Source: Limimaricola variabilis (lineage in GTDB: Bacteria > Pseudomonadota > Alphaproteobacteria > Rhodobacterales > Rhodobacteraceae). Taken from it: a DNA stretch of 64,000 bases. Location: the NCBI RefSeq assembly GCF_014195545.1, contig NZ_JACIBX010000001.1, positions 516,463-580,462 of the forward strand, read 5' to 3'. How positions within the stretch are numbered: position 1 is the first letter of the stretch; the number at the start of each line of letters is the position of its first letter. The notes beneath the pieces are model-generated. The model worked only from the letters and a program-made list of their open reading frames with translations. It ran no database searches and was not told where the DNA came from. Of the stretch, positions 33,494-36,599 are shown piece after piece. The position numbers and the translations under genes are program-made.

Positions 33494-34801
33494 ATGGACA
33501 CCGCCCTAGACGCCGCCTTCTGGATCACAGCAACCGCGATCCTTCTCCTGCTGGTGGCTTCGGCCTTCTTCTCGGGTTCCGAGACCGCACTCACCGCCGC
33601 CTCGCGCGGCAAGCTGCGCGCTGCCGCCGATCGCGGTCACCGCGGCGCGGCGCAGGCGCTGCACGTCACCGAGGACAACGAGCGGCTGATCGGCTCGGTG
33701 CTGCTCGGCAACAACGTCGTCAACATCCTCGCCACCTCGCTGGCCACCGCCCTGCTCACCCGCGTCTTCGGCGATAGCGGCGTGGCGGCGGCGACGCTGG
33801 TGATGACGCTTCTGGTGCTGATCTTCGCCGAGGTGCTGCCCAAGACCTATGCCATCACCAACGCCGAAACGATGGCCAGTCGGGTGGCGCGGCCCATCGG
33901 CTGGGTCATCCTGATCTTCGCGCCCGTCGTCTCGGCCGTGCAGGTGCTGGTGCGGGCCCTGCTGCGCATGTTCGGCGTGCGCACAGACCCCGATACCAAC
34001 GTGCTCGCGGTGCGCGAGGAGATCGCCGGCGCGCTGAGCCTTGGCCACGAGGAAGGCGTGGTCGACCGCGAGGACCGCGACCGCATTCTCGGCGCGCTCG
34101 ACCTCGGCGACCGCACGGTCGAAGAGGTGATGCTGCACCGCTCCAACATTGCGATGATCGATGCGAGCCTGCCCGCGACCGAGATCCTCAAGCTCTGCCT
34201 CGACAGCCCGCATACGCGACTGCCGCTCTATCGCGACGAGCCCGAGAACATCGTCGGCATCCTGCACGCCAAGGATCTGCTGCGCGCGATGCACAAGATG
34301 ATGGGCGACGGCGCGGTCGAGACCGCGGAACTCGAGAATTTCGACATCATGGATGTCGCGATGACGCCCTATTTCATTCCCGAGACCACCACGCTCGACG
34401 ACCAGATGCGCCAGTTCCTGCGGCGCCACACGCATTTCGCGCTGGTGGTGGACGAATACGGCGCGCTGCGTGGCCTGATCACGCTCGAGGACATCCTCGA
34501 AGAGATCGTCGGCGAGATCTCGGACGAGTTCGACGCCGAGCGCGAAGAGCCGATCGCGATGACCGAGGACGGCGCCTACATCATCGACGGCTCGATGACG
34601 ATCCGCGACCTGAACCGGCGCCAGGACTGGAACCTGCCCGACGAGGAAGCCAACACCATCGCCGGCCTGGTGATCCACGAGGCGCAGATGATCCCCACCG
34701 AAGGTCAGGTGTTCAGCTTCCACGGCTTCCGCTTCGAAGTGGTCGCCAAGGAAGAGAACCGCCTCGCGACGCTGAAGATCAGGCCGCTCGATCCGAGCTG
34801 A
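33494..34801 (+). CDS. CorC/HlyC-type CNNM transporter family protein
   Basis: This 435-residue inner-membrane protein has an N-terminal DUF21/CNNM domain with four hydrophobic segments (about residues 8-150, including SAFFSGSETALTAASR), two CBS domains (about 205-345) and a C-terminal CorC_HlyC domain from about 360. The family is linked to magnesium/cobalt efflux or resistance. It follows xerD by 54 bp and ends before a strong terminator. Confidence 0.92.
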   Translation: MDTALDAAFWITATAILLLLVASAFFSGSETALTAASRGKLRAAADRGHRGAAQALHVTEDNERLIGSVLLGNNVVNILATSLATALLTRVFGDSGVAAATLVMTLLVLIFAEVLPKTYAITNAETMASRVARPIGWVILIFAPVVSAVQVLVRALLRMFGVRTDPDTNVLAVREEIAGALSLGHEEGVVDREDRDRILGALDLGDRTVEEVMLHRSNIAMIDASLPATEILKLCLDSPHTRLPLYRDEPENIVGILHAKDLLRAMHKMMGDGAVETAELENFDIMDVAMTPYFIPETTTLDDQMRQFLRRHTHFALVVDEYGALRGLITLEDILEEIVGEISDEFDAEREEPIAMTEDGAYIIDGSMTIRDLNRRQDWNLPDEEANTIAGLVIHEAQMIPTEGQVFSFHGFRFEVVAKEENRLATLKIRPLDPS

Positions 34802-34887: not shown

Positions 34888-35307
34888 CTATGCGGCGCCG
34901 AGCCGGGCTGCATTGCGATCGGGACGACGCAGGATCGCGACTTTTGACGCTGGATCCTGGATCGGCTCGCGCTCATGCGACAGCCGCAGCCAGCGGCCGT
35001 CATCGTCGAGATAGGTGGACGCGCAACGGGCGCGCAGCGGCGCCGAGCAGCAGTCGCGCCATGCGACGACACGGTAGCTGAGAAGCACGGTGTCGCCTTT
35101 TCGGGTCACGTTCTGATCGTACAATTCGATCGCCTCCCATTGGCGGGCGGGTTTGAGACCCTCCAGCGCATCGGCACGGTCCTGCAGCCCAGCGGGATAT
35201 GGGATGACCATGGCAGCGCCCGGAGCCAATTCCCGCTCGTAGAAGGACGCGCCATCGAACCAGTGCTGTTTTTCCTGCGACCAGAGTTCCTCGGTCTTCG
35301 AATCCAT
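34888..35307 (-). CDS. NTF2-like protein
   Basis: This 139-residue protein fits the SnoaL/DUF4440-like NTF2 fold: an N-terminal helix pair (TEELWSQEKQHWFDG), a central sheet and a C-terminal strand GRWLRLSHEREP. The ATG at 35307 has GGGGAGG 6 bases upstream. A Cys pair (DCCSAP) is present. Function is unknown. Two direct repeats of AACGTTA lie in its upstream region. Confidence 0.75.
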   Translation of the reverse strand: MDSKTEELWSQEKQHWFDGASFYERELAPGAAMVIPYPAGLQDRADALEGLKPARQWEAIELYDQNVTRKGDTVLLSYRVVAWRDCCSAPLRARCASTYLDDDGRWLRLSHEREPIQDPASKVAILRRPDRNAARLGAA

Positions 35308-35540
35308 GCTGTTCCTCCCCTGCATGATATTCTTCGCTCCCGTGGCACGAACGTTACACCAATGTTTCCGTTCCGTCAGCAACGTTAAACCGTGGGTTAT
35401 GTCTAAAATCGTACACTCACTTCAATGGTGTCCATTCGCCGCCAATAGTCCTTGGCTTGCAGCCAGTTGGCCTCGGCGACACAGATTTGGCCGGAATTCG
35501 TGAACGGCGCGATTGAAGCAATCTCCTGTTAGCGGTTTCG

Positions 35541-35549
35541 TGATATGTT
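35541..35549 (+). promoter_or_regulatory. Extended -10 promoter of candidate sRNA 1
   Basis: TGATATGTT matches the extended -10 pattern TGn-TATAAT (TATGTT at 35544-35549). The -35 region (ATCTCC) is poor, as allowed with an extended -10. The start would be near 35556. Confidence 0.45.
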
Positions 35550-35554
35550 GATCC

Positions 35555-35618
35555 TGCCGGGCATGGCGCCCGGCGTCCTCCCTGTCAGACTTGCCGCGCC
35601 CTCGGGCGCGGTTTTTTT
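35555..35618 (+). ncRNA. Candidate small RNA 1 with anti-Shine-Dalgarno linker
   Basis: The segment of about 64 nt has a 5' hairpin (GCCGGGC-ATGGC-GCCCGGC, 35556-35574), an unpaired linker GTCCTCCCTGTCAGACTTG and an intrinsic terminator (35594-35618). The linker carries CCTCCCT, complementary to a Shine-Dalgarno, as in sRNAs that block translation starts. It is complementary over about 20 pairs to candidate sRNA 2 located 110 bp downstream. No protein frame is present. Confidence 0.6.
35594..35618 (+). terminator. Intrinsic terminator of candidate sRNA 1
   Basis: CCGCGCC-CTCG-GGCGCGG is a perfect GC stem followed by T7 on the plus strand. No upstream protein gene runs in this direction for 790 bp, so it ends an independent short transcript. 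Confidence 0.85.
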
Positions 35619-35655
35619 GCCGCATGTCCCGGCACTTGGCCCCGCTGCTTAGCGG

Positions 35656-35684
35656 TTGACGCGACGCTCGGCATTGCGTAGCTT
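35656..35684 (+). promoter_or_regulatory. Sigma70-like promoter of candidate sRNA 2
   Basis: TTGACG (35656-35661) and TAGCTT (35679-35684) are separated by exactly 17 bases. Transcription would start near 35691, 62 nt before the terminator end. Confidence 0.55.
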
Positions 35685-35690
35685 GCGGCC

Positions 35691-35752
35691 AATTAGTCGG
35701 CCAAGTCCGACAGGGAGAACCGGGAAAGGGGTCGCTCGCGCGGTCCCTTTTT
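35691..35752 (+). ncRNA. Candidate small RNA 2, partly antisense to sRNA 1
   Basis: The segment of about 62 nt has a 5' hairpin GTCGG-CCAAGT-CCGAC (35696-35711), a linker AGGGAGAACC and a terminator (35724-35752). Bases 35699-35720 read CGGCCAAGTCCGACAGGGAGAAC, matching the reverse complement of the sRNA 1 linker with two mismatches and one bulge. It could act as a sponge of sRNA 1 or share an ancestor with it. Confidence 0.55.
35724..35752 (+). terminator. Intrinsic terminator of candidate sRNA 2
   Basis: AAAGGGG (35725-35731) pairs with TCCCTTT (35744-35750) around a GC-rich inner loop, and T5 follows on the plus strand. Confidence 0.7.
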
Positions 35753-35849
35753 CGATTCGGCGGATCGCCGCGGCGTATTCTCATTCCCGCCTGACAGGGC
35801 CCGGGCCGCGTGTTAAGCCGCTGTCGAAACAGACAAACGGGACCGCTAC

Positions 35850-36599
35850 ATGTCGAACCGACTGACCCTTCTGGCCAGCGCCGCGCTGCTGGCCCTCGCC
35901 GCCCCGCTGACCGCGCAGGAGGCCGCGACGCCGGCCCCCACCGAGCAGAGCGACGCCCCCGCCGACGCCGCCCCCGCAGAGACCCCGGCGGCGCCTGAGG
36001 CGCCCACGGAGGCCGAAGCGCCTGCCGATGCCGAAACCCCGGCAGAGGCCGACGTGCCCTCCGAGACCGAAGCACCGGCAGCCGAAGCACCGACAGCCGA
36101 GGCGCCTGCTGCCGAGGCACCCGCCGCCCCCGAGGGTGAGCGCCCGGGCCAGCCCTACGTCGCCGAGACCCATGGCGATTGGTCGCTGCGCTGCATGCGC
36201 GTCCCCGAGGGCGAGGCCGAGCCGTGCCAGCTCTACCAGCTGCTCGAAGATGGTGAGGGCAACGCCGTGGCCGAGGTCACCGTGCTGCCGCTGAACGCCG
36301 AGTCGCAGGCCGCGGCCGGCGTCACCGTGGTCGCGCCGCTCGAGACCCTGCTGACCGAACAGCTGAGCGTCTCGATCGATGGCGGCCAGGCGGCCCGTTA
36401 TCCCTTCGGCTTCTGCAACCGGGCTGGCTGCGTGGCGCGCTTCGGCCTGTCGCAGCCGCAGCTCGATGCCTTCAAGCGCGGTGCCAAGGGCACGCTGCGG
36501 ATCGTGCCCGCCGCCGCGCCCGATCAGGAGGTCCTGCTCGACATGTCGCTCTCGGGCTTCACCGCAGGCTTCGCAGCAGTTTCCGAACGCGCGCAGTAA
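35850..36599 (+). CDS. Invasion-associated locus B (IalB) family protein
   Basis: This 249-residue protein has a signal peptide ending near APLTAQEA (about residue 24), a low-complexity Ala/Pro/Glu linker to about residue 100 with repeats of APxAE, and a C-terminal IalB domain (PF06776) starting at THGDWSLRCMR. Two cysteines in the domain (SLRCMR and EPCQLYQLL) and a GFCNRAGCVARF pair are typical. It is periplasmic or envelope-attached. In most alphaproteobacteria the role is unknown; the name comes from Bartonella. Confidence 0.9.
   Translation: MSNRLTLLASAALLALAAPLTAQEAATPAPTEQSDAPADAAPAETPAAPEAPTEAEAPADAETPAEADVPSETEAPAAEAPTAEAPAAEAPAAPEGERPGQPYVAETHGDWSLRCMRVPEGEAEPCQLYQLLEDGEGNAVAEVTVLPLNAESQAAAGVTVVAPLETLLTEQLSVSIDGGQAARYPFGFCNRAGCVARFGLSQPQLDAFKRGAKGTLRIVPAAAPDQEVLLDMSLSGFTAGFAAVSERAQ

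Follow-up and report, generated by a model that had tools for sequence, protein, structure and literature searches.

A tandem of small RNA genes upstream of ialB in Limimaricola variabilis: an alpha-R8-like RNA and its putative sponge, conserved across Rhodobacteraceae

The window analysed here, i.e., the whole 64,000-nt stretch of DNA taken from the 3.65 Mb genome of Limimaricola variabilis, carries a pair of putative small RNA genes, sRNA1 and sRNA2, located between a DUF4440 gene (34888-35307, minus strand) and ialB. Both segments are predicted to fold as a hairpin followed by a linker and a terminator, and their limits were set by covariance models. At gathering thresholds Rfam recognizes two tRNAs in the window and nothing else; an automatic scan called only the terminator of sRNA1, missing that of sRNA2, and called no promoter at the pair. 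The features discussed below are:

35551..35618, plus strand: sRNA1, alpha-R8/SorX-like, with a 5' hairpin, an anti-Shine-Dalgarno linker and an intrinsic terminator (R2 model, sub-threshold Rfam matches, fold)
35578..35592, plus strand: conserved core of sRNA1, CTCCCTGTCAGACTT, anti-Shine-Dalgarno and predicted pairing region (core pattern and pairing comparison)
35593..35618, plus strand: intrinsic terminator and U tail of sRNA1 (terminator scan, fold)
35656..35661, plus strand: -35 element of the putative sRNA2 promoter, TTGACG (TTGAC/TANNN[TGC] pair upstream of homologues)
35679..35684, plus strand: -10 element of the same promoter, TAGCTT (same comparison; TAGCGT is the commonest form in homologues)
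35691..35752, plus strand: sRNA2, putative sponge RNA of about 62 nt (R1 model, covarying structure)
35696..35717, plus strand: near-invariant core of sRNA2, GTCGGCCAAGTCCGACAGGGAG, antisense to the alpha-R8 core (alignments, pairing)
35703-35717, plus strand: pairing core of sRNA2, AAGTCCGACAGGGAG (converted from core-pattern coordinates)
35723..35752, plus strand: intrinsic terminator of sRNA2 (fold, covariation)
35791..35815, plus strand: promoter-like element of ialB, CTGACA ... TGTTA, beyond the sponge terminator (motif count)
35850..36599, plus strand: ialB (IalB, PF06776), conserved downstream neighbour (domain match, locus comparison)

The DUF4440 gene adjoins sRNA1. In flanks of 800-1500 nt, a relative of it turns up at only 2 of 99 sponge loci, one of them the window itself, and it may thus have become a neighbour recently. 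Further upstream lies a gene for a CNNM/CorC-HlyC family membrane protein (33494-34801, plus strand) with relatives at 5 of 99 loci, a count that reflects loci mostly comprising about 800 nt upstream, too short for the distance seen in the window.

Conservation was followed with two covariance models, R1 for sRNA2 (10 sequences) and R2 for sRNA1 (nine), from which near-duplicates (2 of 12 sRNA2 and 1 of 10 sRNA1 sequences) were left out. On the window R1 scores 79.7 bits and R2 91.9 bits, but in each case the scored RNA is itself a training sequence. All eight genomes of the genus, that of L. variabilis included, carry sRNA1 and sRNA2 in tandem. Within the family, R1 matches are found in 354 of 394 genomes at E<=0.01, part of which are doubtful because the background in the own genome reaches E 3.2e-5; by hand count, roughly 280 of the 394 retain a match at E<=1e-6. 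We compared 150 loci, i.e., the window, the 109 top-listed R1 places, 38 from a second search and two own-genome background controls (L046, which duplicates the window, was omitted), a sample which leans to better-scoring sponges. An sRNA1-like match lies upstream on the same strand in 83 of the first 99 loci (at 38-205 nt, median 86) and in 42 of the other 51 (at 51-215 nt); of the nine loci that lack it there, two are the controls and three are probably false hits, with neither ialB nor the core. With five loci judged non-orthologous left out (L324, L325, L326 and the controls L331 and L332), the sRNA1-like gene stands just upstream at 125 of 145 loci, while at 20 of the 145 sRNA2 occurs without a detectable sRNA1. 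Two species with a sponge, Cereibacter flavus and Rhodobacter kunshanensis, have no sRNA1 discernible by eye in the 320 nt upstream.

The first-pass annotation of this DNA had described two tandem hairpin-linker-terminator units and named conservation in relatives as a check. The units are real, as indicated by the folds, the covariance-model limits and the pair kept in every genome of the genus, and the tandem at 125 of 145 loci answers the check in the affirmative. This persistence of the tandem, in the genus and at the 125 loci, is the decisive evidence that the sRNA pair is real. The putative sponge is conserved over more than 100 genera with its promoter, structure and pairing kept. An occurrence of the sponge in other alphaproteobacterial families was rejected on the basis of the 13 out-of-family R1 loci inspected, from all of which the core pattern is absent. 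Every genome retrieved by the order-level R1 search belongs to this family. At class level, 38 of 142 genomes gave matches at E<=0.01, including two members of the family; the best match outside it scores 26.9 bits, no higher than the own-genome background (one hit of 26.8 bits) would allow.

Judged by sequence and predicted fold, sRNA1 belongs, as a divergent relative, with the SorX/SorY/MmgR (alpha-R8) sRNAs, whose anti-Shine-Dalgarno core it has. In a lax Rfam scan of 35400-35860 (E<=10), it matches SorX (RF02784) with 36.1 bits (E 3.5e-7, cut-off 46.6), suhB/mmgR (RF00519) with 27.1 bits (cut-off 41) and SorY (RF02651) with 26.0 bits (cut-off 111), all three scores being under the cut-off; its counterparts at 10 further loci score 27.9-41.3 bits against SorX. 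The CCUCCCU core by which alpha-R8 RNAs are recognized is found in sRNA1 between the 5' hairpin and the terminator, so that the anti-Shine-Dalgarno CCTCCCT pointed out in the first reading holds and can be assigned to the alpha-R8 type. The 5' hairpin, the CUCCCUGU..GACUUG linker and the terminator are common to sRNA1 and to SorX and SorY of Rhodobacter sphaeroides, yet sRNA1 differs from these two in scoring below both Rfam cut-offs, in having CA for UG in the core and in its position upstream of ialB. In turn, with MmgR and the alpha-R8 family (RF00519) it shares the anti-Shine-Dalgarno core placed after a 5' hairpin and before an intrinsic terminator, in spite of the sub-threshold family score.

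As for sRNA2, a TTGAC and TANNN[TGC] pair is present upstream of 94 of 99 homologues vs 1% of random segments, with a spacing of 17 in 92 and of 18 in 2 homologues, and the -10 element takes the form TAGCGT in 55 of the 94. We read these TTGAC-N17-TAGCGT-type elements as sigma70-like, while RpoH promoters, as described in the text seen of PMC3441632, likewise carry TTG. In the alignment, 96.7% of cells are paired and changes on both sides occur in 13 of 16 pairs. None of 500 shuffles reaches any of the five measures used; the 103 rows aligned, which include four weak second matches, were fitted to the model, and kinship among sequences inflates such shuffles. In the core hairpin, five sequences have C-G in place of U-A. 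Together, the promoter at 94 of 99 loci and the terminator covariation mark sRNA2, on sequence grounds, as a predicted independent transcription unit. Its core consists of a small hairpin GTCGG/CCGAC followed by AGGGAG; the Shine-Dalgarno-like AGGGAG noted earlier is thus confirmed, as a part of the near-invariant core. No Rfam family is listed on the sRNA2 strand in the lax scan of 35400-35860. The reverse strand, though, shows a weak likeness to SorX (14.2 bits, E 1.1), from which it follows that sRNA2 carries the antisense of the SorX/SorY/alpha-R8 core.

Such an antisense sequence is what would be expected of a sponge, and the complementarity between sRNA2 and alpha-R8 RNAs extends over 18-21 pairs, reaching into their GACUUGGCC. 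For sRNA1 and sRNA2 the first-pass annotation had proposed pairing over about 20 bases with two mismatches and one bulge, which comes close: the core duplex is interrupted by one A.C mismatch and one bulge. Of 2000 double dinucleotide shuffles, 3 attain the ungapped complementarity observed, as do 7 of 2000 segments drawn at random from the window, some of which may include part of the locus. Whole-molecule duplex energies with sRNA2 are matched by 0 of 500 shuffles for the SorX-like copy, 8 of 500 for the SorY-like and 22 of 500 for sRNA1; the test is weak for sRNA1 (z -1.9) and middling for the SorY-like copy. Because GC-rich stems dominate the full-length values, we supplemented them with core-only energies, predicted at -44.8 kcal/mol for the SorX-like copy, -37.7 for the SorY-like copy and -32.3 for sRNA1.

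Alignment of cognate pairs places sponge positions 26 to 8 opposite positions 28 to 46 of the sRNA1 model. In 17 of these 19 facing columns, at least 75 of 83 cognate pairs are Watson-Crick or G.U; of the other two columns, one has A.C in 61 of the 83 pairs and the second, sponge position 12, is mismatched in 23. The conservation of the A.C mismatch implies that the pairing of the sponge with its neighbour is not optimized. Over core positions 14-26 of the 145 sponges, pairing is preserved by 78 substitutions (A to G opposite U, or C to U opposite G) and disrupted by 4; at positions 21-26, outside the sponge hairpin, the respective counts are 46 and 3. In ten flanking positions, by comparison, we counted 113 transitions and 321 transversions. 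These counts are alignment-based and come from related, phylogenetically non-independent sequences, so that the Fisher value calculated from them is not a true probability, and the pair-keeping changes at positions 16, 19 and 20 have a second explanation, as these positions also belong to the sponge hairpin.

Since sRNA1 is of the alpha-R8/SorX/SorY kind, the likely targets of the sponge include unlinked siblings. We found two further alpha-R8 cores in the own genome, L012 and L013: the former is a SorX above the Rfam cut-off (61.8 bits), encoded directly after the gene for a response regulator of the OmpR type (PF00072, PF00486), and the latter is SorY-like, below both Rfam cut-offs. Among 21 genomes without sRNA1 (C. 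flavus, R. kunshanensis and those of 19 of the 20 orthologous loci lacking it), 18 contain an alpha-R8 core elsewhere by a pattern allowing at most one mismatch, and three yield none by this pattern; one extra match, in genome G039, is the sponge itself. C. flavus encodes a SorX of 75.6 bits, above the cut-off, and a SorY-like RNA of 72.9 bits (cut-off 111). In R. sphaeroides, according to the part of PMC8307010 consulted, SorX and SorY act on spermidine-transporter and malate-transporter mRNA, and takP is given as a SorY target in the corresponding part of PMC6238624. In one genome, two alpha-R8-type cores lie 214 nt apart (G289:C5:242104 and 242318, plus strand), possibly forming a tandem of two regulators.

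By sequence comparison, we have thus shown two predicted genes, of which sRNA2 has its own promoter and terminator, an antisense core, pairing-preserving evolution, a family-wide tandem and alpha-R8 siblings in trans. These features and the analogy with CrfA of Caulobacter suggest, with a probability that we put at roughly 0.7, that sRNA2 acts throughout the family as a stand-alone, trans-acting sponge of alpha-R8 sRNAs (SorX-like, SorY-like and sRNA1), working like CrfA. According to this model, alpha-R8 RNAs with CUCCCUGU(N)2GACUUG should block the Shine-Dalgarno sequences of their target mRNAs. Transcribed from the putative sigma70-type promoter, sRNA2 would offer at its 5' end an antisense sequence, partly enclosed in the small hairpin and then exposed as an AGGGAG toehold, and would form in the cell a duplex of about 18-21 bp masking the anti-Shine-Dalgarno core. 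The masking would free the target mRNAs, and the sponging would probably take place on Hfq and entail the decay of either RNA or of both. Of the two readings offered in the first pass, that of a regulator plus its sponge fits best, with the correction that on paper the sponge pairs better with unlinked siblings than with sRNA1.

The other of these readings was an antisense pair; taken as purely local, it would have sRNA2 control only its neighbour sRNA1, with no role for other alpha-R8 RNAs. The tandem order at 125 of 145 loci and the complementarity of the two cores agree with it, but sRNA2 stays at the 20 loci without detectable sRNA1, shows stronger predicted pairing to the SorX-like and SorY-like copies, and keeps a mismatch in its pairing with sRNA1. 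As the sponge persists without sRNA1 and alpha-R8 cores are found elsewhere in 18 of the 21 genomes concerned, we consider this explanation unlikely. Nor do we give much weight to sRNA2 being an ordinary mRNA-targeting sRNA or an AGGGAG decoy for ribosome binding, with the alpha-R8 match as a by-product of Shine-Dalgarno-like pairing, which appears rather improbable: AGGGAG is indeed Shine-Dalgarno-like and the hairpin formed within the core constrains its sequence as well, yet the complementarity goes far past Shine-Dalgarno length, into the further sequence shared by alpha-R8 RNAs.

As ialB follows sRNA2 on the same strand in 97 of the first 99 loci and in 45 of the other 51 (142 of 145 of those judged orthologous), sRNA2 could also be taken for an attenuated 5' leader of that gene and not for a gene in its own right. 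However, CTGAC-N10-24-TGNTA follows the sponge terminator at 128 of 145 homologous loci vs 12.9% of random segments, and the terminator of sRNA2 is strong and covarying. A promoter-like element of ialB beyond the sponge terminator makes sRNA2 a most improbable leader, and we rejected the attenuator on this ground. Finally, chance likeness of two unrelated terminators or spacer sequences could be entertained for a single pair, which is only moderately unlikely by the shuffles (3 of 2000 for complementarity, 22 of 500 for energy), but is already refuted by conservation over more than 100 genera, and its probability is negligible.

CrfA of Caulobacter crescentus is described in the text seen of PMC12559287 as sequestering the alpha-R8 sRNAs SisA-D via their CCUCCCU core, aided by Hfq, and as lowering their level; MmgR is named there as the only alpha-R8 RNA characterized earlier, and Rhodobacter is never mentioned in its main text. 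Like CrfA as described there, the putative sponge is a small RNA of its own in which a stretch rich in G and A is antisense to the alpha-R8 anti-Shine-Dalgarno core, with a predicted release of alpha-R8 targets. Yet, CrfA pairs via residues 49-63 in its second stem-loop (PMC12559287), whereas the site of sRNA2 spans nucleotides 6-27 of 62; by this description of CrfA, to which our comparison is confined, sRNA2 lacks the placement typical of a CrfA homologue, and its genomic setting, to the extent compared, also differs. The lax scan of 35400-35860 listed no CrfA family, and Rfam possibly holds no CrfA entry. QrrX, SroC and 3'ETS-leuZ, named in the same part of PMC12559287, are likewise RNAs that capture a regulatory sRNA, but have other target families and other genomic origins than sRNA2.

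In R. sphaeroides, StsR (formerly RSs0827) is reported in the accessible part of PMC8307010 as a 72-nt, RpoHI/RpoHII-dependent sRNA that binds UpsM. As proposed here for sRNA2, it is a short sRNA that targets another sRNA, namely UpsM from the mraZ 5' leader. Its dependence on RpoHI/RpoHII would differ from the sigma70-like reading of the sRNA2 promoter elements, whose TTG, however, is also found in RpoH promoters. Upon stsR deletion, SorX and SorY are raised according to the discussion of that paper, while SorY is slightly lower according to its results, and because these statements differ, the part consulted does not settle the identity of sRNA2. In C. flavus, the best complementarity to the sponge near mraZ amounts to 12-13 nt and falls in the coding region, and the mraZ leader contains no convincing match. 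It may still be that sRNA2 corresponds to StsR or to some other sRNA known from R. sphaeroides. The sRNA lists seen of R. pomeroyi (PMC4809877) and Paracoccus (PMC5107571, no match to the search terms) gave no help in identifying sRNA2, and we found no alpha-R8 sponge described for Rhodobacteraceae in the one open-access collection searched, most subscription papers being outside the scope of the search.

If the sponge model is correct, SorX and SorY, the photo-oxidative-stress sRNAs of Rhodobacter, would share a common antagonist that we did not find described for Rhodobacteraceae, and alpha-R8 sponging, so far shown in Caulobacter, would be older or more general in Alphaproteobacteria, by descent or independently. 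The conserved mismatch raises the question of whether the sponge can tell sibling sRNAs apart. A tentative extension, possible but rather doubtful, is that Rhodobacteraceae keep the two genes together as a selective RNA switch, in which the sponge would remove siblings in trans (SorX, SorY and other alpha-R8 RNAs), the conserved A.C mismatch would weaken its grip on sRNA1, and the balance of two promoters would decide which alpha-R8 member controls shared target mRNAs. Being tandem, short and family-wide, the pair should be tractable in Cereibacter/Rhodobacter or in roseobacters.

Two minor observations concern the surroundings of the tandem. Among 40 loci read by eye, a motif of about AATACANNCTTAACCNTTNNNTGCCAG is seen upstream of many sRNA1 genes, corresponding in the window to approximately 35514-35548, where it is degenerate; TTAACC is reminiscent of a CtrA half-site. 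The other observation is a cobalamin riboswitch (RF00174, L113:1510-1666, minus strand) that scores 82.9 bits, is cut by the end of the locus and neighbours a sponge for which the stretch examined contains no ialB.
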